Shown here: in pieces, positions 34,964-59,064 of the stretch
Layout of the letters: each line of letters opens with the position of its first letter
How positions within the stretch are numbered: position 1 is the first letter of the stretch
From: Haloterrigena salifodinae
Lineage (GTDB): Archaea; Halobacteriota; Halobacteria; Halobacteriales; Natrialbaceae
NCBI RefSeq assembly: GCF_003977755.1
Contig: NZ_RQWN01000007.1
Coordinates: 1-64,000 of the forward strand
DNA length: 64,000 nucleotides
Direction: 5' to 3'
Translations under genes and position numbers: made by a program
Notes under the pieces: generated by a model
The model's input: the letters and a program-made list of their open reading frames with translations, nothing else
Databases searched by the model: none
What the model was told of the DNA's origin: nothing

Positions 34964-35380
34964 CGGCGGTCACCTCGTGGTGCGTGGGTGGTCGGGTCTC
35001 GAGTCGGTGCTCGAGAAGCAGTCCGATCGCTCGCGCGTGCGTAGTACTGTAGTAAGAACGCAGCGGCTCGCGTCTCGTCGTGGCCGTCCGAACGGCCAGC
35101 TGTTCCGTCGTCTATGGGGTAATCTCTTTGACCCCTCGAGCGTTCGTTTCGCATGGTCGGAAATCCTTGTAGCGAGGTTGACCCGACCCCCGACGTGTTC
35201 CAGCACGTCGGACCTTTCAGTCCGAAAGGGGCGGATCAATTATATATAGAGACTCCCATTACAAATACTTTTCCTACAATTTGCAGCCAGAATAATACAG
35301 TTTGCTACTAGATCAGTCGAATACGCTATCATATCGTATATATCGGTAAATCTATGCTCACGAATCCTGCCTGTAGAAAC
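34964..35380. other. Divergent intergenic region, start of the AT-rich island
   Basis: GC content falls sharply at about 35230. A short hairpin 'cctttcagtccgaaagg' (35206-35222) is followed by an AT run 'aattatatatagag' near 35237-35250. A second TATA-like 'gtatatatcgg' is at 35336-35346. These could be the operator and promoter region for the PhiH1-repressor-like gene and its divergent neighbour. Confidence 0.5.
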
Positions 35381-35650
35381 GTGGTACGACAACGAGCCGA
35401 CTGGATGCGCCCAGTCGACGAACGCATCCTAGAGACGATGCGTGACGAAGGAAATCTCACTCCACAGGCAGTGGAGAACTTCGATGTCTGCTCCCGTGGC
35501 CACGCCAGTATTCGGCTCTCTGAACTCGAAGAATACGGGCTCGTTGAGCGGATCGCACAGGGGCTCTATCGACTCACTGATGCCGGCCGTGCGTTTCTCG
35601 ACGAAGAACTCGATGCTAGTGAACTCGAGGCCTCAAACGGCGGTTCGTAG
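35381..35650 (+). CDS. PhiH1-repressor-like winged-helix protein
   Basis: An 89-residue DNA-binding protein. 'RQRADWMRPVDERILETMRD' and the 'SIRLSELEEYGLVERIAQGL' wing match the repressor of halovirus phiH1 and its chromosomal relatives ('LYRLTDAGRAFLDEEL' end). I choose GTG 35381: the family N-terminus 'VRQRADWM' begins there, and the TATA box at 35337-35345 lies about 40 bases upstream. An ATG at 35354 would sit only 10 bases from it. It is the only clear regulator at the edge of the AT-rich island, so it may control the halocin-like genes. That is inference. Confidence 0.8.
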   Translation: MVRQRADWMRPVDERILETMRDEGNLTPQAVENFDVCSRGHASIRLSELEEYGLVERIAQGLYRLTDAGRAFLDEELDASELEASNGGS

Positions 35651-36077
35651 CTACTCCCACATTTGATTGTCGCTCTTTTTAGAGTCTCGAAGTAGGAGAA
35701 AGAACTGGGTCAATACGACGGCGGTCAGCAAGCCGTCCCGGCGCTGTTCCGCGGATATCAAGGCATCTAGTTGCGGTTTCAGTTATGTTAGCGAAGTTCC
35801 ACAGCCTCTCCAAACAGGCTTGGAACAGGTCACTCGGACCTACGGTTTCCTCCGAATACCGAACCTGACGGCGAATTGATCCACGGACTCATCAACTGCA
35901 TCGCTGTCAATGTCCTCTGCTAAATTACCGGAGAGTGAACCCGGCAGTTAGCGGTTTTCCAGCGAATAGGCGACTCCATACAGTTCTGTTAAAAGGAAAC
36001 GAGTATTATATTTCGTGGTGTTTATGGCACGAGATCAAAACGCCCTTCATGCATAAGTGCCGTAGTAGGAAGAAACA
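35651..36077. other. 427-bp region without a supported gene
   Basis: Moderately AT-rich. It carries short frames that do not resemble any family I know and may be decayed coding DNA. A 'gagtattatatttcg' element near 36001-36015 could be the promoter of the small membrane protein. Confidence 0.45.
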
Positions 36078-36260
36078 ATGGAAAAGAAGAGAATACGATA
36101 CGCCTTGATACAAGGCGTACTACTAATGACTTGTCTATTTGTTTTGGCAGGTATACTTACAATCATTGGATTTCCTACACCAGACTGGCCAGTTCTAGTT
36201 GTCGCACCTATAATTATAGGTATTATACACACCTACTTTGTTTATACTAAAACCGATTGA
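36078..36260 (+). CDS. Small two-helix membrane protein in the halocin-like island
   Basis: A 60-residue protein with two hydrophobic segments, about 10-30 ('LIQGVLLMTCLFVLAGILTI') and about 38-55 ('VLVVAPIIIGIIHTYFVY'), separated by GFPTPDWP. The basic N-terminus MEKKRIRY suggests both ends are inside. 'aggaaga' lies just before the ATG as a possible ribosome-binding site. Codon use is AT-rich like the rest of the island. The function is unknown; next to a bacteriocin-like precursor, a small membrane immunity peptide is one possibility. Confidence 0.6.
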   Translation: MEKKRIRYALIQGVLLMTCLFVLAGILTIIGFPTPDWPVLVVAPIIIGIIHTYFVYTKTD

Positions 36261-36319
36261 ACAGAATTCGTCTCGGTGGAAACCAATTCATCAGAACACC
36301 ATCATAAGTTAATATCATT

Positions 36320-37768
36320 TTACTTGCTAGTTTGAGTTTCTCTTGGTGCCGTTCCGCTTATATTTCTAATTTCGTGTTGAATTGATTCAGCAGTCTGGAT
36401 ATCAAAATCGGCTGCGTGTATACCGATTGAAAGCACTGGAGACGCCGTCTTGATAGAGATTGTTGCTAGATTGGCTCGGCGTTGAAACACCGATTGTGTC
36501 ACAGAGACTTCTTGAATTCGATTCAACGGGACAATGTATGTGTGCTGACGGACTACACCCCGCTTAAGAACAAGTTGATCACCATATATTTCAATCCCAC
36601 GACTCTTCCAATTTAGGTGAGCGAGTACCGGACCAGCTAGGGCAAATAGTAGTGGCCACGCTCCCAGTGGCCGAATAGTGCCGATCAGCTGATACGATCC
36701 TGCGATCGAAATCACCGTAAGTATCCCAATCCCGATTAAATAATGAAGCAGATATCGTCGACGCATTCGTTTCGGAGGCCCTTGAAGTGATTCATCGCGA
36801 TACGGAAGAATCTGTTGCGCAACGGTCTCAATTGTGTTCGATTTTTCGAGGGGAATTAGTGGTTTTCGGAACGGAAATGGGTTATCTTCTGTCATTCCTG
36901 CTGATGAAACAGTTAACACTGCATAGTCGAGAATCCGTTGGAGACAATTAGACGAAATCCGAACTACTTGTATATTCTCCATCGGAATTGTGGTCGAATG
37001 GTCATATATAAATCCGGCTCTGCTCCGCAGGTTGTCTCCTTCGAGTGTAACTGACAAATCATAGAATTTGATGACGGTCTTGATTGCACCGAAAAGCCAT
37101 ACAAGCAGGAGAAGACCACCGAGGACAACCGGCAGCGGCAGATACACCAGTTTGCTTAGAATCGGAATTCGATTACCGGGAGTTGAGATGAGATCCGTAA
37201 GAATTGTAGCAATACCGAGAATGCCTATAAAGATATATTTTAGATGGAGCGAAGTTAGTCCTCGTAAGATGAGTGCTTGTAAAGATGCATCATAGAGTGT
37301 TGTTTGCTCTGCAGTAGCCTCAACTGACCATTCCGTTTGATTTTCTAATCGCTTCTGTATTCTTTCAGCGTCATTTTTAGTGACATACTGTAATTCGATC
37401 CCGCTCTTCTCTCTGGTTCCAGCGGTTTCGAAAGTCACCGCTGTCAATCCTAACAGGCTGTTGAACCAGTCCTGAACGACATCTACCTGTTGAACCCTTT
37501 CAAGTGGGACAGATCTTCGTTTTAAATTTAGCACACCCCGACGCATCGTAATTTGCCCGTCCTCGATAGAATACGATGACCGCTGCCAGTAGAGGAACTG
37601 GGCAATAACCCGACTGCCGTAATACATGAGCAAAGAAAGAATATACGTAAGAATGAAACTAGCTTCTCCGATTCCGATGAATGCTAATACAAATACTGGG
37701 AGAGTAATGAATGACCACGTGATGTCGTCGATTACGCGACGGATTATTGATCTTTTTGCAAGCTCCAT
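36320..37768 (-). CDS. Bacterial PH-domain (bPH2) membrane protein, YdbT-like
   Basis: A 482-residue membrane protein with three bPH2 modules and about six hydrophobic segments, matching YdbT in length and plan. Module 1 (about 60-140) has 'YSIEDGQITMRRGVLNLKRR' and 'SVPLERVQQVDVVQ'; module 2 (about 235-315) 'STTIPMENIQVVRISSNCLQ'; module 3 (about 390-470) 'GVVRQHTYIVPLNRIQEVSV'. Hydrophobic pairs precede modules 1, 2 and 3. It follows the YdbS-like gene by 5 bases, so they are co-translated. In Bacillus the ydbS-ydbT pair contributes to resistance against bacteriocins. Here the pair lies straight after a halocin-like precursor gene, making self-immunity the best guess. Confidence 0.85.
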   Translation of the reverse strand: MELAKRSIIRRVIDDITWSFITLPVFVLAFIGIGEASFILTYILSLLMYYGSRVIAQFLYWQRSSYSIEDGQITMRRGVLNLKRRSVPLERVQQVDVVQDWFNSLLGLTAVTFETAGTREKSGIELQYVTKNDAERIQKRLENQTEWSVEATAEQTTLYDASLQALILRGLTSLHLKYIFIGILGIATILTDLISTPGNRIPILSKLVYLPLPVVLGGLLLLVWLFGAIKTVIKFYDLSVTLEGDNLRSRAGFIYDHSTTIPMENIQVVRISSNCLQRILDYAVLTVSSAGMTEDNPFPFRKPLIPLEKSNTIETVAQQILPYRDESLQGPPKRMRRRYLLHYLIGIGILTVISIAGSYQLIGTIRPLGAWPLLFALAGPVLAHLNWKSRGIEIYGDQLVLKRGVVRQHTYIVPLNRIQEVSVTQSVFQRRANLATISIKTASPVLSIGIHAADFDIQTAESIQHEIRNISGTAPRETQTSK

Positions 37769-37773
37769 AATGA

Positions 37774-38220
37774 TTATGAATCTTCTTGCTTTTTATTGAA
37801 TATTTCTTCTTCAATCATTTTACTTTTATCCGGCCGAAGCCCAGAAATTCTTACTGTAGAATCCGCTTCGCCTGCAGTGTGGATCACGAGTCGTGATAAC
37901 CCGAATAAACGGTCAATAATTGGCTGATTTATATCGACATGCTGAATATTATGGTGAGGGACGAACGTCCTTTTCCTCCAGAGAAATCCGCACTCTATGA
38001 AAATCCCATTACTCTCGATCTGGAAATTCCAAGAACGGTAATGGAAGGAAATTACTGCTATACCTGAAAGAACAAGTAAAAATAAACCAATTATCGAAAT
38101 CCAGGTTGGTACAAATTCGAATCTCTGTGATACAGCCCGAGTTATCATAGAAAATATTATAGAAATAAGAATTAGCTTCAAACCCCATTGATACTTCACG
38201 CGGCCATTTAGTCCGTTCAT
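37774..38220 (-). CDS. Bacterial PH-domain (bPH2) membrane protein, YdbS-like
   Basis: A 148-residue protein with two N-terminal membrane helices ('GLKLILISIIFSMITRAV' and 'WISIIGLFLLVLSGIAVISF') and one bPH2 module ('SNGIFIECGFLWRKRTFVPH', 'HNIQHVDINQPIIDRLFGLS'). Length and order match YdbS. A TATA-like 'agtataaata' (38247-38256) lies 27-36 bases upstream of the ATG, so this gene and the YdbT-like gene have their own promoter besides possible read-through from the halocin-like gene 96 bases upstream. Confidence 0.85.
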   Translation of the reverse strand: MNGLNGRVKYQWGLKLILISIIFSMITRAVSQRFEFVPTWISIIGLFLLVLSGIAVISFHYRSWNFQIESNGIFIECGFLWRKRTFVPHHNIQHVDINQPIIDRLFGLSRLVIHTAGEADSTVRISGLRPDKSKMIEEEIFNKKQEDS

Positions 38221-38316
38221 TCGTTATAGAAGGATTTCTATCCAATAGTATAAATATCTGTCTTAACTATAAGGGATGCGAAATAAATAGTCGAACTGGA
38301 ATTAATCTCTATACAC

Positions 38317-39237
38317 TTACGAGCCGATCCCGGCTGCCGCACAGAGGGCAGCAGAACCACTTGCACATCCGTACGTTTTGATGATCTGTGTGGCCATAAT
38401 ACAAACGATATCACAGCCAACGATAGCGATCGGGATTCCAGCAGCTGTACAGGTGGTGACACACTGTGCAATGCCGACGCTACCGCCGTAGGCATTACAG
38501 AGCGCCCCCATAAGTGTCAGACAAGCACCGGTCCCAAGCACGTCGTCCCAATCAACACCGAAAGGCAAGGGGTCAGCAGGTGATACACCCTCGTAATTGG
38601 TCAAATCCTCCGTGTGAGTGAGTTCATCCATCGTCGCCACAGACGAGGACGAGGCACTGCTTGCGGGGGAAATACCGGTATTACTCTCAACTGATTCGAC
38701 ACCCAGCACTTCCATCTCGATATCTAACGCCTGATTTTCTCTATCGATCTCGGGGATGAATTCAGTCGCCCACGTATTGGCAGCCTTTCGCCCTCCACTA
38801 TCAGGGTCATCGAGAACAATTGCATTAAGTAGTCCTCGTTTTTCACTGGAGTCGTTATTGAAGAAAGCGAACACGCTAACGGGATTTAGTCCTTTTAGCT
38901 CCGAGGTGTAATCGCGACTCATATCGCTTTGGTCGAACGACTCCGAAATAATCTCGGTGTCGACCTCAATCGCCGCGACGTTCTCTTGATCGAAACTGTG
39001 CCCTCTATCCTTCAGCGAATCGTGGAGCGCTTGCACCTCTTTGGTTCCCATCGCATGCTCAAACTCGGCCTGAGCCGCCTCAGGGTCAAGCGCGGCCGAT
39101 TCCATAGAATATTCGCTTTGAGAACCTGCTGCGGACGCAGTTCCCATTCCGATTGCTGCAGTACCAGTCACACCAACTGTTTTGAGTACTTTTCGCCTGT
39201 TGACGGTTCTCTCCGAGTCATGGATATTATCTTCCAT
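38317..39237 (-). CDS. Halocin C8-like precursor (Tat signal, pro-region, eight-cysteine peptide)
   Basis: A 306-residue exported precursor. The Tat signal 'NRRKVLKTVGVTGTAAIG' has Arg14-Arg15, and a likely cleavage site follows 'TASAAG' near residue 38. Residues about 40-230 are an acidic, Ser-rich pro-region without cysteine. The last 72 residues (235-306) are hydrophobic and Gly/Ala-rich and hold all eight cysteines of the protein, at 239, 247, 259, 263, 275, 279, 291 and 299. Halocin C8 is known to be made the same way: a Tat-exported proprotein whose N-terminal part is the immunity protein and whose Cys-rich, very stable C-terminus is the antibiotic. Ours differs in having eight rather than ten cysteines and little visible sequence identity. 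Neighbours (subtilase upstream, YdbS/YdbT downstream, same strand) fit a bacteriocin locus. Codon use is AT-rich, a sign of transfer. Confidence 0.8.
   Translation of the reverse strand: MEDNIHDSERTVNRRKVLKTVGVTGTAAIGMGTASAAGSQSEYSMESAALDPEAAQAEFEHAMGTKEVQALHDSLKDRGHSFDQENVAAIEVDTEIISESFDQSDMSRDYTSELKGLNPVSVFAFFNNDSSEKRGLLNAIVLDDPDSGGRKAANTWATEFIPEIDRENQALDIEMEVLGVESVESNTGISPASSASSSSVATMDELTHTEDLTNYEGVSPADPLPFGVDWDDVLGTGACLTLMGALCNAYGGSVGIAQCVTTCTAAGIPIAIVGCDIVCIMATQIIKTYGCASGSAALCAAAGIGS
38320..38535 (-). other. Predicted mature microhalocin region of the precursor
   Basis: This encodes residues 235-306, from 'GTGACLTLMGALC' to 'LCAAAGIGS'. Cysteine spacing is C-x7-C-x11-C-x3-C-x11-C-x3-C-x11-C-x7-C, a mirror-symmetric pattern. 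The exact N-terminal cleavage point is not known; 'DWDDVLGTG' just before it may be included. Confidence 0.6.
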
Positions 39238-39559
39238 AATCCATCTGAAAACATTACATTCTTCTATTAAAGCTTTTATACATTATCATTTCATATTTCT
39301 TTCTGAATTCTTCAATAATATAAATTGTTATCTGATGTGACTAATATAAAGTGAATAAACAAAGGAGAGAATACAATAATTCAGGAAAAGGTATCTTTCA
39401 ATAAAATCCATACTGTAGCAACTGAGGCACAGGTAGTAGTATTACAGAGCAATGGCTCCGCTTTCGGCAGAACGAAAGACCATATACCTCCTTAACAGTA
39501 GAAAGCAACGCAACCGAGTAGCGCAATAAGACGGAAAAACGGCCGATATGAGGTTTTCG
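39238..39559. other. AT-rich region with the halocin-like gene promoter
   Basis: A TATA-like 'tgtataaaagc' on the minus strand (39272-39282) lies 35-45 bases before the halocin-like ATG, so its transcript would have a leader of about 10-15 bases. No coding frame is seen in the remaining 250 bases. Confidence 0.55.
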
Positions 39560-40969
39560 TCACCTTACAACACGCTCAAGCGTGTCAGATGCGTTAATGC
39601 GACCGGCCCCGAGACCCGATGTATATTCGCCGGATAATTCAACTGCGCCTTTCTCAATGGCCTGCTGGACGCGCCGTGGATGGATATTCGGATCGAGTTC
39701 ACGAATGAGACACGCGAGTCCGGCTACTTGTGGTGCCGCTATCGAAGTCCCGTTTACGTAGTCGTACTGTGAGCCATAGATGTCTTGTGAAACAGTAGAC
39801 AACACATTGTTTGTCGGATACGGAAACTCAACTATCTCCGGATCACTAATTGCGGTCTTTTCGGTGGTCTCGTAGCCACCACCGGGCGCGGCGACATCAA
39901 CTGTTCCATTTCCGTAATTCGAGTAGTGACTCCGTCTATCGGATGGTCCAGTCGCGGCAACGGTAATTGCTCCAGGGATATCGGCAGGCAACACATAGTC
40001 AGTTTCTTGATCTAGATCAACGCCATAGTTCTCAGCAGCGGCCACAACGACAGTGTCCTGCTCTATTGCGTGCTGGATTACGCGACGATACGCAGTAAAT
40101 ATCCGACTGTCAGAGGGTTGCTTCTGTCCAAGGCTAAGATTAATCACGTCAACACCAAGTTCGACTGCGTAATCGATCGCAAGAAGAGTATCGGTAATTG
40201 TCCCTACGAGTGTATTACGATATTCATTAAGTTGTTCCCAAAACATTGATCGAAGTGAGATAATCTCTGCATCGGGAGCTATTCCGACGATACCAGTATC
40301 ATTGCGCGCTGAAGCGGTGATTCCAGCGACCGAGGTTCCGTGTCCAGAAACATCACCAGCGACAGGCTGAGTGATTGTCGTTACTTCTGGGAAGAATCCT
40401 GGGGGTTCTTTAGCAACGAGAACGTCGTCAACTCCGGAGTACATACGTCCATACCGGAAAAGCCGACTATGGTCGGTGTTAATTTGAGAGGCGAGCGCTG
40501 AGTGTGTGTGACTGATACCGGTGTCGATAATTGCGACTGTCGTTCCATTACCAGTCGCGTGATTGTGGGCAGTTGCCGTCTCCATAAGCTGTTTATCCCA
40601 CTGTGTTTCGTACGAAGGTTTCTCGGTGATTGTCGAGTTATCTGCTACCTTCTCCATATCATTAACAGCGTACGTTGTATCCGGAATCACATCGTTTACA
40701 ACCGCCATTGTCCGGAGCTTATCACGTCTGTCTTCAGGGCCCTGAACAATGAAGAGCGATTCATTAGCGAGTTCGTGTAACACGTCGAATCCAGATCGTT
40801 GGATCCGGTCGCGAAGCCCGGAACCTCCGGCCAAGACGATATATAGATGTTCGTCCTCAGGAACTGCACCTTTGTTTGCGCTTCTCGAACCGGTTGCACC
40901 AACTGCCACGCTGGTCCCTGCAATACTTTTGAGTATCATTCTTCTCGATAATCCAATATTTTTATCCAT
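39560..40969 (-). CDS. Tat-exported subtilisin-like serine protease (halolysin-like)
   Basis: A 469-residue S8 peptidase. The Tat signal is 'LSRRMILKSIAGTSVAVG', with Arg9-Arg10. Residues about 38-100 are an inhibitor-like propeptide ('DEHLYIVLAGGSGLRDRIQR'). The triad is Asp149 in 'VAIIDTGISH', His210 in 'VSGHGTSVAGI' and Ser409 in 'VNGTSIAAPQVAG', with oxyanion Asn314 in 'AAAENYG'. All catalytic residues are present. There is no C-terminal extension of the kind found in several halolysins. The start at ATG 40969 is supported by a TATA box 'ttttataaat' 22-31 bases upstream, implying a leaderless transcript; an ATG at 41032 would add an unlikely hydrophobic leader. Being next to the halocin-like gene, it may process the precursor outside the cell. 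Confidence 0.88.
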   Translation of the reverse strand: MDKNIGLSRRMILKSIAGTSVAVGATGSRSANKGAVPEDEHLYIVLAGGSGLRDRIQRSGFDVLHELANESLFIVQGPEDRRDKLRTMAVVNDVIPDTTYAVNDMEKVADNSTITEKPSYETQWDKQLMETATAHNHATGNGTTVAIIDTGISHTHSALASQINTDHSRLFRYGRMYSGVDDVLVAKEPPGFFPEVTTITQPVAGDVSGHGTSVAGITASARNDTGIVGIAPDAEIISLRSMFWEQLNEYRNTLVGTITDTLLAIDYAVELGVDVINLSLGQKQPSDSRIFTAYRRVIQHAIEQDTVVVAAAENYGVDLDQETDYVLPADIPGAITVAATGPSDRRSHYSNYGNGTVDVAAPGGGYETTEKTAISDPEIVEFPYPTNNVLSTVSQDIYGSQYDYVNGTSIAAPQVAGLACLIRELDPNIHPRRVQQAIEKGAVELSGEYTSGLGAGRINASDTLERVVR

Positions 40970-41302
40970 AGATAAATTATAGAGATGTAATTTTATAAAT
41001 GTAGTGGCGTTAATGGTATTTATTACATACAAATATATAGTAATTATTTAATCTAGATAGTTTAGTAATCTATATTTTGTTCACCTAATCGAAACAGACT
41101 GGTAGCCGCGCTCGAATTGGGATGAAACGGATGCGGCACATTGATCCCGCACATGTTTTCTTTCAGGGCGCTGTTGGCTTGGCGACACTCATCAAGTGAG
41201 CGTTGCACGTGCATCGAGAAACTAACCTGCAGACGCTTCGGCGCGACCGTGAATCACCTCACTTCGAGGTGCTCGACTGCTCTCCACGGGTCGGAAGCAT
41301 GT
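40970..41302. other. AT-rich flank with decayed sequence, no intact gene
   Basis: Contains the promoter of the protease gene (TATA 40991-41000). From about 41100 GC content rises again. No intact reading frame was recognised. Confidence 0.4.
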
Positions 41303-41512
41303 TCATTCGCCGGACGCTTCCTCCATATCCTGTTCGAGATTTTCGACATCGACGAGCGAGCGCACTTCGTGACCAGTCAGTGTATCCAGCCAGCCAAGAC
41401 ACTAGTACTCGCCAGAGTGATCGGTGTTGATGTGCTCCGTGAGCTCCGAGAGCTCGTCTGTCTCAAAGTTACAATCGTCGGGTAAAAGACACAGGAAAGT
41501 TCGACCAGTCAT
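41303..41512 (-). pseudogene. Small zinc-finger-like gene interrupted by TAG
   Basis: Reading from ATG 41512: MTGRTFLCLLPDDCNFETDE, then 'LSELTEHINTDHSGEY', an in-frame TAG at 41402-41404, and the same frame continues 'CLGWLDTLTGHEVRSLVDVE', 'NLEQDMEEASGE' to TGA 41303. The frame is coding-like on both sides of the TAG. The C-x5-C ... H-x4-H arrangement before it resembles a small zinc finger. A CAG-to-TAG change would explain it. It could instead be a genuine 36-residue protein followed by an unrelated frame. Confidence 0.5.
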
Positions 41513-41779
41513 TTCGACCGCCTAGCTGCTGCCTCCAAGGTCATGGACTACTAGGGCAACGTACCTTGGGACTCGATTAGCACGTCGCCGTGGACACCGG
41601 TTTTCGGTTCAGGACCATATCCAGTACATCTGCTGGATGGTTATTCAGTAGAATATCACATACTGTCATAGCTACTCACTGGAACACCGCAACTCCTGTA
41701 TTCTAATCCTATGCTAGTAGAGATGTTAGCGTCGGTTCCTGATTCTGTTCTGAGCGATATCTGTATCAATGAGCAGATG

Positions 41780-42045
41780 AAGAAGAGCTATGTAGGCGAC
41801 TCGTCGCACCCTCGTCCTCGAGTCCACTCCTAATATCGGACTTAGCACCGAAATCGATCTCGCCACTGGCCGTCGGCTCATACTCGAGCACCACCGTCTC
41901 ACCGGCGATCATCGAGTCGCCCTTCGCCACCGAAATATCCTCGAGGGCCACCTCCGGCGGGAACAGCACGTCGACCCAACTCCCGAACACGATGTGACCG
42001 ATTCGCTCGCCGGGGTCGACTTCATCGCTGGGTTCGACGTAGGGG
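41780..42045 (-). pseudogene. Truncated 3' copy of phosphatidylserine decarboxylase gene
   Basis: Translation 'FPYVEPSDEVDPGERIGHIV', 'FGSWVDVLFPPEVALEDISV', 'AKGDSMIAGETVVLEYE' matches the C-terminus of the intact psd (44127-44897) in the same orientation. Homology starts abruptly at 42045, after 'cgacgtaggggaa', and includes the end of the gene, where a lost base shifts the last residues. About a third of the family length is present, with no start, so it cannot function. Divergence from the intact copy shows the duplication is not recent. Confidence 0.85.
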
Positions 42046-42147
42046 AACGACACCGCGTACGAGAGACGACGATTCTGTTCTTAGCCACTGGCCCCGGAAC
42101 CGGAGCGCTGGCGGGGATGTACCACCCGCTCGAGCCCCACCGTCAAC

Positions 42148-44126: not shown

Positions 44127-44897
44127 CTAGGCGGGCGACTCGTCGCCACCCTCGTCCTCGAGGTCCCCGAAATCAACGTCTGAACCGGCCCCGAGATCGA
44201 TCTCCCCGTCAGCTGGCGCGCCGCTCTCGAGCACTACCGTCTCACCAGCCGTCATCGAATCGCCCTTCGCCACCGAAATGTCCTCGAGGTCCACCTCGGG
44301 CGGAAAGAGCACATCCACCCGGCTGCCGAAGGCGATGTGCCCCAACCGCTCGCCGCGATCCATCTCGTCCCCGGGCTCGACGTAGGGGAAGATCCGGCGG
44401 GCGAAGGCGCCGGCGATCAGCGTCACTTCGGCGTCGAAGGCCGGTTCGTCGGGCCTCGAGTGGGGGTCCTCGTCGTCGCTCGAGTCGTCCCCATCGTCGG
44501 CGTCGGGCAGGTTCGACGACTCGGTTTCACAGCGGACGTGGACCCGCTCGTTGCGGTCGGATTCCTTCGAGAACGCCGGTCGGTTCGCGCCGGAGACGTG
44601 CTCGAGGTCCGTCACCGACGCCGCGAAGGGCGAGCGGACGACGTGGACGTGCCAGACGTTCATGAAGACGCCCAGCCGAACGCGGTCGCCTTCCTCGCGG
44701 AGCACCGAGACGGTGCCGTCGGCCGGCGAGACGACGCCCGTCGGCGGCGGGGTGCGGTCGGGATCGCGGAAGAACGCAAGGGTGCCGGCCCCCACTGCGA
44801 GGGCGATGAGACTCACCGTCGCGCTGAACAGCAACGCGAACGGCGCGGCGAGCAAGGCCGGGATCGCGTACTTCCAGGCCCCGGGAGCGAAGTTCAT
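44127..44897 (-). CDS. psd: Phosphatidylserine (archaetidylserine) decarboxylase proenzyme
   Basis: A 256-residue membrane-associated enzyme that converts phosphatidyl- or archaetidylserine to the ethanolamine lipid. Two hydrophobic segments lie near the N-terminus ('WKYAIPALLAAPFALLFS' and 'SLIALAVGAGTLAFF'). 'PADGTVSVLREEGDRVRLGV' and 'NVWHVHVVRSPFAASV' carry the conserved Asp and His. 'GHIAFGSRVDVLFPP' holds the Gly-Ser site where the chain self-cleaves to form the pyruvoyl group. An acidic insertion (about 145-170, 'DADDGDDSSDDEDPHSRPDE') is unusual. A diverged 3' copy lies 2.1 kb downstream (41780-42045). Confidence 0.92.
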   Translation of the reverse strand: MNFAPGAWKYAIPALLAAPFALLFSATVSLIALAVGAGTLAFFRDPDRTPPPTGVVSPADGTVSVLREEGDRVRLGVFMNVWHVHVVRSPFAASVTDLEHVSGANRPAFSKESDRNERVHVRCETESSNLPDADDGDDSSDDEDPHSRPDEPAFDAEVTLIAGAFARRIFPYVEPGDEMDRGERLGHIAFGSRVDVLFPPEVDLEDISVAKGDSMTAGETVVLESGAPADGEIDLGAGSDVDFGDLEDEGGDESPA

Positions 44898-45055
44898 ACG
44901 GGCATACACGTGGTCGATTCGTATGGCCGTTACGGTGCCCCGCGGCCGCTCCGGGACGCTACCGCCCGCGTCACCGCCGAGACCCGCCAGTCCGCACACC
45001 GCCAAAACAGTACCGACGCTCTCCCCGAGACGCTCCCGACACCGTCCCCGAGCCG

Positions 45056-47122
45056 CTACACGTCCGCCTCGGCTCGAGACAGGGTAAACGAGAACGTCGC
45101 CCCCTCGCCGGACTCCGACTCCACCCAAATCTCGCCGCCGTGGCGTTCGACGATACGCCGGCAGAGCGCGAGCCCGATGCCGGTGCCGTCGTACTCCTCG
45201 CGGCTGTGCAGGCGCTGGAACACGCGGAAGATCCGGTCGGCGTCGTCGGGATCGATCCCGATCCCCTCGTCTTCGACCGAGAACCGCCACATCCGGCCGC
45301 ACCGTTGGGCCGTGACCTCCACCCGCGGCGGCTCGTCGCCGCTGTACTCGATCGCGTTCGACAGCAGGTTCTGGAGCAACTGCCGGAGCTGGCTCTCGTC
45401 GCCCCGAACGCGGGGCAGCGAGTCGACGGTGATCTCGGCATCGGACTCCTCGATCATCATCTGCAGATCCGTCAGGACGTCCTCGAGGACCGCCTCGAGA
45501 TCGACGGGTTCGAACGGCTCGCCCTGAGTGTCGATCCGGGAGTACTCGAGCAGGCCGTCGATCATCTGGCGCATGCGGTCGGCACCGTCGACCGCGTAGG
45601 CGATGAACTCCTCGGCCTCCGAATCGAGGTCGGCGGCGTACCGGTTCTCGACGAGCGAGAGGTAACTCGAGACCATCCGCAGCGGCTCCTGGAGGTCGTG
45701 GCTCGCCGCGTAGGCGAACTGCTCTAAGCGCTCGTTCGAGGCCTCGAGTTCGTCGACCGTCTCGCCGAGCTGGCGTTCGTAGCGCTGGCGCTCGAGCGCG
45801 GTCGCGATGATCGTCGCGGCGCTCTCGAGGAAGTCGACGTCGTGGTCGGCGAACTCCCGGGACTCGCCGTCGTAGACGACGAGGACGCCCCACGGCTCGG
45901 CGATCGAACCGACGGTCGCGCCCATGCCGCTCCGAACGTCGTTGTCGGTCAGATGGGCGTCGAAGTGCTCGTCGGCCGCGACGTCTTCGACGACGATCGG
46001 ATCGTCCGACTTGAGGGTCGCGCCGGCCAGCGACTCGGTGAGCGTCGATCGAGCGCACTCGCTGTCGAGCAGGGCCTCGCTGCAGCCGACGGCCTCGCGA
46101 ACCCGAAAGACGTCGTCGGACTGCGCGGATCCGCCGGCGTCGGCCACACTGCCGCCGCGACCGACCGCGTCGTACTCGAAGGCGACGCAGCAGTCGACCT
46201 CGAGGGCCGCGCTGATCAGTTCGGTCGCCTTCTCGAGGAGGTCGTCGGCGTCGCCCTCCTCGAGCGCGTGGCGGCCGAGGTAGGCGATCGACTCGAGCTG
46301 GGCGACCTTGGATTTGAGCGTCCGTTCGGCCTCCTTGCGCGGCGAGATATCCCGAAACAACCCGACGAAGTATCGGTTGCCCTCGTAGGTGAAATCGTTG
46401 AGCGAGACCCCCAGCGGGATCTCGTGGCCAGCCTTGTGCTGGCCCGGCAGCTCGACGTACGTCCAGTTCAGATTCCGCTCGCCGGTCTCGAGGTAGTTCT
46501 GCAGGGCGTCGAGGTGGGCCTGTCGCAGCCGCGGCGGGATGATGTTGACCTTGCTCGAGCCGACGAGTTCGTCCGGGTCGTGGCCGAGAATCCGTTCGAC
46601 CGCGGGGTTGGCGTACTGGACGTCGCTGTTCGTATCGAGGATGATGATACCGTCGGGGAGCGCGTTAGCCAGCGCCTGAAACGTCCGGCCGTAGGTGAGA
46701 TCCGAGTCGGAAACCGACTCCGTGGCGGTCGGCCGTCGGGTGACGACGCCCGCGAGTTGGGGTCCGTCGTCGGTCTCGCGGACCTCGAGGTGGGCGTCGA
46801 CGGCGATCGTCGTCCCCTCATTCGTCCGAATCGAGAACTGCTCCGAGAACGGGCCCGCGTCGGCCGCGTCGTCGACCAGCGACTCGAGCGTCGGATCGTC
46901 GGCCGCCGTAAGCTCTGAAAACGGCGTGCCGATCAGTTCCGAGCAGTCGAAGCCAGTCAGCGACGCGAAGGCGTCGGTGGCCGCGGCGATCGTTCCGTCC
47001 GCTCTGACGCGAACGGCGGCAACGTCCGCCGCATCGAGCAGGGCACCGGTACCGAATACGCTCGAGGACGCCTGGGAGTCCGTATTTCCGGCGGAAGGCG
47101 CCGACGGAGGGCCCGATTCCAT
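45056..47122 (-). CDS. PAS/PAS/GAF sensor histidine kinase
   Basis: A 688-residue cytosolic sensor kinase. Domains: PAS 1 (about 30-140, 'RVRADGTIAAATDAFASLTG'), PAS 2 with PAC (about 150-275, 'DGIIILDTNSDVQYANPAVE'), a GAF domain (about 285-440) with several cysteines, then HisKA with the phosphoacceptor His in 'YAASHDLQEPLRMVSSYL'. The HATPase has the N-box 'LLQNLLSNAIEYSGDE', 'VEDEGIGIDPDD' and 'GTGIGLALCRRIVERHGG'. There is no membrane helix. The nearest receiver is at 42747 and is not co-transcribed. The signal is unknown. Confidence 0.93.
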   Translation of the reverse strand: MESGPPSAPSAGNTDSQASSSVFGTGALLDAADVAAVRVRADGTIAAATDAFASLTGFDCSELIGTPFSELTAADDPTLESLVDDAADAGPFSEQFSIRTNEGTTIAVDAHLEVRETDDGPQLAGVVTRRPTATESVSDSDLTYGRTFQALANALPDGIIILDTNSDVQYANPAVERILGHDPDELVGSSKVNIIPPRLRQAHLDALQNYLETGERNLNWTYVELPGQHKAGHEIPLGVSLNDFTYEGNRYFVGLFRDISPRKEAERTLKSKVAQLESIAYLGRHALEEGDADDLLEKATELISAALEVDCCVAFEYDAVGRGGSVADAGGSAQSDDVFRVREAVGCSEALLDSECARSTLTESLAGATLKSDDPIVVEDVAADEHFDAHLTDNDVRSGMGATVGSIAEPWGVLVVYDGESREFADHDVDFLESAATIIATALERQRYERQLGETVDELEASNERLEQFAYAASHDLQEPLRMVSSYLSLVENRYAADLDSEAEEFIAYAVDGADRMRQMIDGLLEYSRIDTQGEPFEPVDLEAVLEDVLTDLQMMIEESDAEITVDSLPRVRGDESQLRQLLQNLLSNAIEYSGDEPPRVEVTAQRCGRMWRFSVEDEGIGIDPDDADRIFRVFQRLHSREEYDGTGIGLALCRRIVERHGGEIWVESESGEGATFSFTLSRAEADV

Positions 47123-56972: not shown

Positions 56973-57013
56973 ACGGCATGAGAAGGAGCGGGGGAAGAAA
57001 GGGACGACACACA

Positions 57014-57033
57014 CACACCACGTTTCCGGTGAA
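57014..57033 (-). repeat. ORB repeat 5
   Basis: Exact 20-base copy, 61 bases from repeat 4 and the last before the AT-rich region. Confidence 0.9.
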
Positions 57034-57129
57034 AGAGGGTTCGAAGGAGGGGGAAGAACGCAATGTTTCGGAGAGTGGGAGAATAGAACGGATAGTCTAA
57101 GTGACGGGGGAAGAGAGTCCATTTGGGTG

Positions 57130-57310
57130 GGGTTTCTGACGATCCGCAGATTGATCCTCACTTAAGAGAGGATACAGACAACATTTGCAAGTTATTTCAA
57201 GGAGCTCTATTGTCACAGCTTTCCCTTCTCCTCTACCAACAAATATAATACACTGGACAGTAAAAAGTCCATTGAGTATAAAGTAAACAAAAGAAGTCGA
57301 CAGTAGTCGA
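57130..57310. other. AT-rich duplex-unwinding element
   Basis: Local GC content is far below the surroundings, with 'acaaatataatacactgg' and 'taaagtaaacaaaagaag'. It contains two small hairpins, 'ggacagtaaaaagtcc' and 'gtcgacagtagtcgac'. It lies between the two oppositely oriented ORB groups, as expected for the unwinding site. Confidence 0.7.
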
Positions 57311-57320
57311 CGACGGCTCT

Positions 57321-57331
57321 TTCACCGGAAA
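57321..57331 (+). repeat. Half ORB
   Basis: 'ttcaccggaaa' matches the first 11 bases of the inverted ORB; the second half is missing. It stands at the right border of the AT-rich element. Confidence 0.6.
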
Positions 57332-57624
57332 TCCTTTTATTCCCTTCTCCATCGTTCAGAAGATATCTCTGAAACGTCGATAGGGCCCTTCGTACGGTCC
57401 ACTTCGGCTGCTTTCTCGGTGCAGTCCTTCTCTAGTCCTTTCTCGAGTTGTGTTGCGATCCTCCGATCTCACTTGAGCAAACGTTCCGATCGGAAAGCGA
57501 TACGAACTCGAGGCTAGCGGGAGTGGCGAACGTCCTATTGTCCCGGTATAACAGACGTACTACCGTTGAAACGCCGATATTCCGATCGCTCTACTCTGCT
57601 CCTCTCCGTCGCAAGTTCGACACC

Positions 57625-57643
57625 ACACCGGGTTTCCGATGAA
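57625..57643 (-). repeat. Degenerate ORB
   Basis: 'acaccgggtttccgatgaa' matches the ORB with changes in the centre and one near the end. It is oriented like repeats 1-5. Confidence 0.55.
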
Positions 57644-57689
57644 TCTCAACCCCTGTTTCAACTGGAACCCCATCCCCCGATTTTCGCCG

Positions 57690-57709
57690 TTCACCGGAAA
57701 CGTGGTGTG
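57690..57709 (+). repeat. ORB repeat 6 (inverted)
   Basis: 'ttcaccggaaacgtggtgtg' is an exact inverted copy of repeats 1-5, on the orc1 side of the AT-rich element. Confidence 0.9.
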
Positions 57710-57831
57710 TGTGTCTTCGCCCGACGATTCCGCTACCCCAACTATTATATAATCGCTTGAAACACTCTCTTCCCCCCATAATTCACCGTCCTGAGCGATG
57801 AACCCACCTCGAGTCCAAACAATAAAGACGT

Positions 57832-57851
57832 TTCACCGGAAACGTGGTGTC
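57832..57851 (+). repeat. ORB repeat 7 (inverted), overlapping the orc1 leader
   Basis: 'ttcaccggaaacgtggtgtc' ends 7 bases before the orc1 ATG. Binding of Orc1 here would block its own promoter or start region. Confidence 0.9.
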
Positions 57852-57858
57852 TACGATC

Positions 57859-59064
57859 ATGTCGAGTTCCGGCGACGACCTGTTTACCCGTGACGACCCT
57901 ATCTTCGAGAACAAGGAGCTACTCGAGATCAACCACCTCCCGGAGGAGGGGCGGATCGTCGGTCGGGACGATGAGATCGCCGATCTCGCCAACGCCGTTA
58001 ACCCGGCGATCTTCGGACAGAGTCCGAGCAACCTGCTCATCTACGGGAAGACGGGTACCGGCAAATCCCTCTGTGCGAAACACATCTCCGAACGGCTGGT
58101 CCGCGTCGCGACGGAGGAAGGCGTCACCGCGGAGTTCGCCTACGTCGACTGCGCCCAGGACAGCACGGAGACGCAGGCGGTCCAGACGATCGCCTACTCG
58201 CTGAACGATTCCGAACGGACCGACATCAAGATCCCCGACAAGGGACTCAGCACGTCGACCTACTACAAGCGCCTCTGGACGGTGCTGGACTCCCAGTACG
58301 AGGTCGTCCTCATCATCTTAGACGAGGTCGACAAGCTCGACGACGACGACATCCTCATGCAACTCTCGCGCGCGGGCGAAGCCGGCAAACTCGATAACTG
58401 CAAGATCGGCGTTATCGGGATCAGCAACAAGATCAAGTACAAGGACCGGATGGACGAGCGGGTCAAGTCCAGCCTCTGCGAGCGGGAGTTCGTCTTCCCG
58501 CCCTACGACGCCAACCAACTCCGGGACATCATGCAGGCTCGCAGCGACGCGTTCAAGGACGGCGTCCTCGAGCCCTCGGTTATCCCCCGGGCTGCGGCGC
58601 TGGCGGCCCGGGAACACGGCGACGCGCGGAAGGCGATCGACATCCTCCGCTACGCCGGCGAGATCGCCCAATCGAACGGCAGCGAAACGGTTCGCGAGGA
58701 GTACGTCGTTCAGGCCCGCGAACGGGCCGAGACCGACCGATTCCGGGAACTCATCCGAGGGTCGACCCCCCACTCCCGGTACGTCCTGCAAGCCCTCGCA
58801 GTTCTCGCGCTCAACACGCCCGACGAGGACGGCTTTCGGACGACCAGGATCTTCGACGTCTACGAGGAGATCTGTCGTCAGGAGGGGTCGGACACGCTCT
58901 CCCTGCGTCGCGTCCGCGACCTCCTGAAGGAACACGCGTTCCTCGACATCATCGAGCAGTCTCGCCAGAGCGGCGGCAGCGCCGAGGGAAGCTACACCGA
59001 ACACCAACTGCTCGAGGATCCGGACGTCGTCCGGAAGGTACTCGTCGAGACCGACGACGCGTAA
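57859..59064 (+). CDS. orc1: Orc1/Cdc6 family replication initiator
   Basis: A 401-residue AAA+ initiator that binds ORBs, opens the origin and recruits MCM. Walker A is 'IYGKTGTGKSLCAKHI' (about residue 60) and Walker B 'VVLIILDEVDKLDDDD'. Sensor 1 is 'IGVIGISNKIKYKDR', and the Arg of sensor 2 is in 'HGDARKAIDILRYAGEIAQ'. The C-terminal winged helix (about 310-401, 'SLRRVRDLLKEHAFLDIIEQ') reads the ORB. 'GRIVGRDDEIADLANAVNP' and 'FGQSPSNLLIYG' are typical of the conserved haloarchaeal chromosomal initiator. The start at ATG 57859 (MSSSGDDLFTRDDPIF) is clear. It is flanked by ORBs on both sides, so it most likely serves this origin. Confidence 0.96.
   Translation: MSSSGDDLFTRDDPIFENKELLEINHLPEEGRIVGRDDEIADLANAVNPAIFGQSPSNLLIYGKTGTGKSLCAKHISERLVRVATEEGVTAEFAYVDCAQDSTETQAVQTIAYSLNDSERTDIKIPDKGLSTSTYYKRLWTVLDSQYEVVLIILDEVDKLDDDDILMQLSRAGEAGKLDNCKIGVIGISNKIKYKDRMDERVKSSLCEREFVFPPYDANQLRDIMQARSDAFKDGVLEPSVIPRAAALAAREHGDARKAIDILRYAGEIAQSNGSETVREEYVVQARERAETDRFRELIRGSTPHSRYVLQALAVLALNTPDEDGFRTTRIFDVYEEICRQEGSDTLSLRRVRDLLKEHAFLDIIEQSRQSGGSAEGSYTEHQLLEDPDVVRKVLVETDDA

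Follow-up and report, generated by a model that had tools for sequence, protein, structure and literature searches.

The DNA analysed here, referred to as the window, is a stretch of 64,000 nt of Haloterrigena salifodinae (GCF_003977755.1, contig NZ_RQWN01000007.1, positions 1 to 64,000). A gene for a halocin C8-like precursor was identified on its minus strand, together with two membrane protein genes and a protease gene on the same strand:

35300..42000, no strand: low-GC island (GC profile; 0.43-0.53 against 0.60-0.70 around it) containing the whole locus
36320..37768, minus: YdbT-like membrane protein, 482 aa, with three bPH_2 domains (PF03703, E=9.1e-44, 3 stretches)
37774..38220, minus: YdbS-like membrane protein, 148 aa, with one bPH_2 domain and about two TM segments (PF03703, E=2.6e-17)
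38317..39237, minus: halocin C8-like precursor, 306 aa, comprising a Tat signal, an acidic cysteine-free pro-region and an eight-cysteine core
38320..38559, minus: putative mature peptide, residues 227-306, with four predicted helices and eight cysteines
38560..39129, minus: acidic pro-region without cysteine, about residues 37-226 (profile comparison)
39130..39237, minus: Tat signal peptide, residues 1-36 (NRRKVLKTVG ... ASA), with a cleavage site predicted from sequence
39273..39280, minus: TATAAAAG, an archaeal TATA-box-like element approximately 36 bp upstream of the precursor ATG and a putative promoter (from sequence)
39560..41032, minus: Tat-type secreted S8 subtilase, a possible maturation protease (PF00082, E=1.9e-45)

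The precursor gene is a genuine open frame, consisting of one ORF of 306 residues on the minus strand. An earlier sequence-only reading of this DNA had described a Tat signal, a long cysteine-free pro-region and eight C-terminal cysteines, and all of these were confirmed in the 306-aa product. Its N-terminus (MEDNIHDSERTVNRRKVLKTVGVTGTAAIGMGTASA) carries a twin-arginine signal whose A-S-A site spans residues 34-36 and whose NRR occurs in all seven eight-cysteine relatives. Residues 1-238 are free of cysteine. The acidic pro-region is approximately 190 residues long with a net charge of -29, while the core, with a mean Kyte-Doolittle value of 1.07 and a net charge of -3, is hydrophobic. Cysteines occur at positions 239, 247, 259, 263, 275, 279, 291 and 299, giving the gaps 7-11-3-11-3-11-7 exactly as that reading had listed them. 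Random placement of cysteines was computed to yield palindromic gaps in about 5 of 100,000 cases. The spacing was found again in L057 and L062 (27-32% identity to the window protein), and because it recurs in two relatives of only ~30% identity, the mirror-like arrangement is conserved and not due to chance. A sigma-70 promoter scan returned matches at chance level only, this model being inapplicable to archaea.

The sequence-only reading had also proposed that the C-terminus is halocin C8-like, and profile searches place it in the corresponding NCBIfam family (TIGR04449, halocin C8-like domain). The whole window protein scores 21.7 bits (cut-off 24), the stretch scores 25.8 bits in a genome search and an orthologue in genome G240 scores 29.5 bits. 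In addition, the core shares cysteine columns b, c, e, g, i and j with classes A and B of the family. Assignment of the window protein to TIGR04449 as a divergent member near the cut-off is well supported by these comparisons. Its nearest relative (32-34% identity over the full length) is encoded on plasmid pHTUR02 of Haloterrigena turkmenica DSM 5511, and this H. turkmenica protein (WP_012945653) is already annotated as 'halocin C8-like domain-containing protein'. The suggestion of a separate subfamily is also borne out: the eight-cysteine proteins form one clade inside a branch with a frame unlike that of halocin C8, although the broad halocin C8-like family is already named by NCBI. No description of the eight-cysteine branch was found in the open-licence literature searched.

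Homologues were sampled as 74 family ORFs with approximately 12 kb of context from 392 genomes of the order, with further family ORFs added from the taxonomic family of the window's genome. The layout of Tat signal, pro-region and core is common to the homologous ORFs (74 ORFs, 392 genomes). Orthologues without the cysteine-rich end, which the sequence-only reading had named as evidence against itself, were looked for among the homologues and none was found. Viral contigs searched with the window protein and three relatives gave no match, and neither did genome contigs searched with a peptide pattern derived from the eight-cysteine pair. Halocin C8 (ProC8/HalC8; TIGR04449, NF040679) is, like the window protein, a Tat-exported precursor with a cysteine-free pro-region and a C-terminal, hydrophobic, cysteine-rich core with alignable cysteine columns. 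The window protein differs from it in possessing eight cysteines in place of ten (the outermost pair being lost), in its branch-B frame (f, h') instead of the A frame (d, h), in the bPH_2 pair that adjoins it and in a pro-region that has no direct match to HalI.

Several other members of the family were observed. The window's genome encodes an intact canonical halocin C8 precursor (L001, G000:C3:536335-536544, 60 bits) and a class A halocin copy reduced to a pseudogene by in-frame stops or frameshifts (L056, G000:C2:554500-554703). At L123 and L127, the halocin C8-like domain ends proteins of ~680 aa, both without cysteines c and i. Class B cores from a Halorubrum trapanicum plasmid, Halobacterium sp. 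DL1 and archaeon DL31 (L088, L089 and L090) are 99-100% identical, and this near-identity across genera on plasmids points to recent transfer.

Two ten-cysteine arrangements were distinguished. Class A, to which halocin C8 itself belongs, has the gaps 2-7-3-7-13-7-8-8-5, a spacing not possessed by the window protein, and class B has the gaps 2-7-11-3-12-3-11-7-5. The eight-cysteine proteins correspond to class B minus its first and last cysteine. They comprise seven loci (L079, encoding the window protein, L057, L062, L058, L060, L064/L154 and L145) and form a single clade nested in class B in the halocin tree, a FastTree of short divergent proteins of which only well-supported forks were used. 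Branch B proteins such as those of the H. trapanicum plasmid (L088) and G389 (L067) belong to the same clade as the window protein, with a homologous pro-region and the inner frame 7-11-3-12-3-11-7, but they retain the outermost cysteine pair (ten cysteines); two branch B proteins are encoded in the same hal-YdbS-YdbT order as at the window locus. The class B protein of L061 is a perfect ten-cysteine palindrome (3-7-11-3-12-3-11-7-3).

Joint loss of cysteines was analysed over 60 aligned non-redundant cores. The third and eighth columns (c and i) are never lost singly (phi 1.00), and the tree places their joint loss on at least three separate branches (L131; L071; L123/L127). Columns d and h also have a correlation of 1.00, while that of a (first) and k (last) is 0.84, with the exceptions, L061 and L130, holding both cysteines at positions shifted in the alignment. 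Within class B, f and g are lost jointly in L107, L134 and L146. One cysteine is lost alone in L129, and L070 is degenerate. The nested pairs a-k, b-j and c-i, followed by d-h and e-g in class A and by e-h' and f-g in class B, are well supported by this pattern of loss, and for the window peptide we infer the nested pairs 1-8, 2-7, 3-6 and 4-5. As cysteines disappear in nested pairs across the 60 cores, the mirror symmetry is best read, on evolutionary evidence, as a ladder of nested disulfides; roughly mirror-like spacing would be natural for such a ladder since nested disulfides stack across a folded-back helical chain. The pairwise losses provide a concrete, testable disulfide connectivity for the whole halocin C8-like family. 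A plain alpha-hairpinin (CX3C...CX3C) was also considered for the central four cysteines and rejected, as class A departs from this pattern and the outer pairs agree with those of saposins.

The YdbS-like gene is located 97 bp downstream of the precursor on the same strand, with the YdbT-like gene next to it. These co-oriented neighbours encode one-domain and three-domain bPH_2 membrane proteins, which is the architecture of YdbS and YdbT (PMC8657885), and their hydrophobic segments fit two TM helices for the YdbS-like protein and several for the YdbT-like protein. Genes for bPH_2 proteins are present in every genome, in a handful of clusters each. The 125 genomes of the family contain 17 places with a class B or eight-cysteine halocin, and at six of these a bPH_2 pair is found no more than 1 kb from the halocin gene, with the order hal-YdbS-YdbT co-oriented in G000, G240, G389 and G401 and divergent in G154 and G401. 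Approximately 0.1 chance adjacencies would be expected among the 17 places, an estimate to be read in the light of related loci not being independent. The pair accompanies four of the seven eight-cysteine loci; L060 and L062 are without it, and the remaining locus is truncated where its contig ends. Two ten-cysteine loci also have the pair, while most ten-cysteine loci do not. At L060 and L062, another small multi-pass membrane protein directly adjoins the precursor (L060:5677-5979, minus; L062:4536-5147, plus), possibly as an alternative immunity or regulatory protein.

In a maximum-likelihood tree of YdbT, the proteins associated with class B and eight-cysteine halocins form their own clade (100/100) on long branches, the YdbT-like protein of the window among them. 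The housekeeping pairs of these genomes fall outside it, and the subgroups of this clade match the halocin subgroups. A search with a profile of the clade gave 13 matches at 580-733 bits, with all others at 311 bits or less. Six of the 13 are linked to a halocin and seven are orphans with no halocin within several kb. The orphan YdbS/YdbT pairs of this clade (L076, G000:C3:583732-585488; L162; L168-L172) look like orphan immunity or resistance genes. Two class A loci beside a YdbT gene (L093 and L101) were not counted, as their YdbT falls in the housekeeping clade; at these loci, from two genera, the housekeeping-type YdbT (L093:5698-7293, minus; L101:6378-8204, minus) is convergent with the class A halocin at a distance of ~100 bp.

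Protection of the producer, at least in part, is the most likely role of the bPH_2 pair by analogy, since the Tat signal makes help with export unnecessary and the orphan pairs fit resistance. The main rival for this role is the pro-region, which may confer self-immunity as HalI does for halocin C8, leaving the bPH_2 pair incidental or auxiliary. The two-part layout of the precursor is the same as that of halocin C8, and loci L060 and L062 are intact without bPH_2 genes. The sequence-only reading had likewise drawn a parallel to halocin C8 with its N-terminal immunity part, but such a part, of the HalI type, could not be demonstrated by direct profile comparison of the window pro-region with that of HalC8 (no match, probability 0.2%). 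Indirectly, profile comparison connects the pro-regions of three groups, namely the eight-cysteine clade, class B and a single class A group (97.8% and 84.9%), and the pro-region of this class A group is in turn linked to that of HalC8 (97.8%), so that a chain of links leads from the window protein to HalI. That the halocin-associated bPH_2 clade tracks the halocin subgroups is unexpected for incidental neighbours, and we regard immunity through the pro-region as somewhat unlikely.

Nested pairs with a CX2C start and a CX5C end are the signature of saposins. A saposin-like fold was set down as a hypothesis ahead of the fold tests. The six-cysteine saposin pattern (CX2C...CX5C; pairs 1-6, 2-5 and 3-4) is matched by the cysteine arrangement of classes A and B; the window peptide lacks it, its outermost pair being lost. 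AlphaFold2, given the window core and eight class A relatives (a shallow nine-sequence alignment), predicted four helices (9-24, 30-40, 48-63 and 69-75) with a pLDDT of 79.8 and a pTM of 0.64 in the best model and pLDDT values of 47-72 in the remaining four. The best PDB match of the window core model was residues 82-162 of murine acid sphingomyelinase (Foldseek E 1.9, probability 0.47; VIA Z 6.8, 2.8 A over 73 residues), middling VIA Z values being common for helical models. These residues correspond to the N-terminal saposin domain, with which the mature enzyme begins and which is seen in its closed form in PDB entry 5FI9 (PMC4961792). For an AlphaFold model of halocin C8 (pLDDT 74), two entries of saposin B and one of surfactant protein B occupied the top three VIA rows (Z 4.0 to 2.6); fold families absent from the VIA lists were not counted as excluded.

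Profile searches against 177,635 PDB sequences gave eight matches at E up to 10 with a profile of 46 cores, six of them saposins, and five matches with the class A profile, all of them saposins (E 0.05-0.14). The class B profile, from which the eight-cysteine rows (outer pair absent) had been removed and which included a few more class B rows, gave a single match, saposin-like protein 1, over its full length (E 0.022). In this alignment, columns a, b, f, g, j and k lie on the six saposin cysteines, and the co-loss pairs therefore fall on saposin pairs. No match to PDB sequences was obtained with cysteine-preserving shuffles of the cores or with the mixed profile of class B and eight-cysteine proteins, and the window protein alone gave no meaningful match by sequence. 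A Pfam scan of the 46 cores detected DSL in three and SapB_1 in one (E 0.49), little better than shuffles.

Each of the saposin scores is weak (E 0.02-0.4 for single matches), yet they are in agreement. The nested topology, the CX2C...CX5C ends, two AlphaFold models and the PDB profile searches point to a saposin-like fold, which is probable for the halocin C8-like family. The window peptide, as the outermost saposin pair is absent, does not have the full saposin frame but probably works like a saposin-fold peptide. In the open-licence literature, no link between halocins and saposins was found, nor any solved or predicted fold or disulfide pairing of halocin C8. Saposins (saposin A/B, the acid sphingomyelinase domain and hookworm saposin-like protein 1) resemble the halocin family in having ~80 residues and, as predicted for the halocins, four helices, and share CX2C...CX5C ends and the proposed nested pairs with the family as a whole; the halocin family differs in being archaeal and Tat-exported and in two extra internal rungs, the window protein lacks the outermost pair, and sequence similarity is marginal. 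An unlikely alternative is that the core has no relationship to saposins and folds as a compact helical hairpin with a ladder of disulfides, the matches reflecting only a shared cysteine pattern and helices. Such an origin would be in keeping with the low significance of single matches, with Z values of a size usual for helical models and with the shallow alignment behind the AlphaFold models. It does not account well for the disjoint class A and class B sets each matching saposins only among the 177,635 PDB sequences, for cysteine-preserving shuffles matching nothing or for the coincidence of co-loss pairs with saposin pairs.

Pairs of YdbS and YdbT adjoin the leaderless bacteriocins EntDD14, aureocin A53, lacticin Q and geobacillin 6 (PMC8657885, PMC10311245), and several leaderless bacteriocins adopt a cysteine-free saposin-like fold (PMC6072434, PMC7559574). 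The window locus resembles these systems in a one- plus three-domain bPH_2 pair beside the peptide gene and in the saposin-like fold, predicted here, whereas leaderless bacteriocins are bacterial, lack a leader and cysteines and are accompanied by ABC transporters. The window protein itself is not of the leaderless type (aureocin A53/EntDD14-type), as it has a Tat signal, a 190-residue pro-region and eight cysteines. Deletion of DdE or DdF blocks the export of enterocin DD14, the pair acting there in export and not in immunity (PMC8657885), and by analogy the bPH_2 pair of the window could serve release or maturation. This is quite unlikely, as a precursor equipped with a Tat signal of its own does not require a dedicated exporter, and the halocin-free orphan pairs in seven genomes fit resistance better than export. 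In Bacillus, moreover, YdbST has been linked to resistance (Butcher and Helmann 2006, as cited in PMC10311245).

The explanation of the locus that we favour, with moderate confidence, is that the gene product is the precursor of a secreted, saposin-like microhalocin of the halocin C8-like family, with the bPH_2 pair protecting the producer at least partly. The precursor would be exported folded via the Tat pathway, after which the acidic pro-region would be removed outside the cell by a protease, for which the neighbouring S8 subtilase is one candidate. The released peptide of ~75-80 residues would form a four-helix saposin-like domain with the disulfides nested as above and would act on the membranes of competing haloarchaea, while the YdbS/YdbT-type bPH_2 pair encoded just downstream would protect the producer, wholly or partly. 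The antimicrobial activity of the released peptide is putative. It is very unlikely that the secreted protein has the halocin C8 domain but serves instead in the envelope or in signalling. Although this domain also occurs in a few far longer proteins (680 aa, L123 and L127), the patchy, plasmid- and island-borne distribution, the single gene per locus with a fast-evolving membrane pair alongside and the homology to an experimentally proven halocin argue against a role other than antimicrobial.

A wider proposal is put forward tentatively, with the balance slightly against it: that the halocin C8 family represents archaeal, secreted and disulfide-bonded saposin-type antimicrobials, the first prokaryotic bacteriocins with a saposin disulfide topology, and that the YdbS/YdbT pair is an immunity module against membrane-active peptides of saposin fold, common to archaea and Gram-positive bacteria. 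The bPH_2 pair is a candidate immunity mechanism for archaea. Whether YdbS/YdbT act in export or protection becomes testable in a second domain of life, in which the halocin peptide leaves by the Tat pathway and needs no such exporter.

The S8 subtilase gene is located upstream of the precursor and its product possesses the catalytic motifs. Protease-precursor systems have been reported for haloarchaea (PMC12893001). Like the protease-activated halocins HalH4/HapP with halolysin HlyR4, the window locus combines a predicted secreted haloarchaeal precursor with a predicted extracellular S8 protease, but it differs in that the adjoining S8 gene is not conserved at other loci, and it is not known to be related to them in sequence. 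The subtilase has no counterpart at the other halocin loci examined, and the same genome has a 62% paralogue that is not near any halocin; the subtilase was on these grounds ruled out as a conserved partner protease.

The GC content of the island, 43-53% inside DNA of 60-70% GC, makes it probable that the locus was acquired as one unit. The island has at its right edge a C-terminal fragment of phosphatidylserine decarboxylase (41766-42053, minus), which duplicates the end of an intact copy about 2 kb further on (44127-46058, minus) and is possibly an insertion scar. A small hydrophobic ORF of 60 aa without a family match (36078-36260, plus) is convergent with the YdbT-like gene, and a second low-GC dip (0.51) occurs within the window at 57001-58000.
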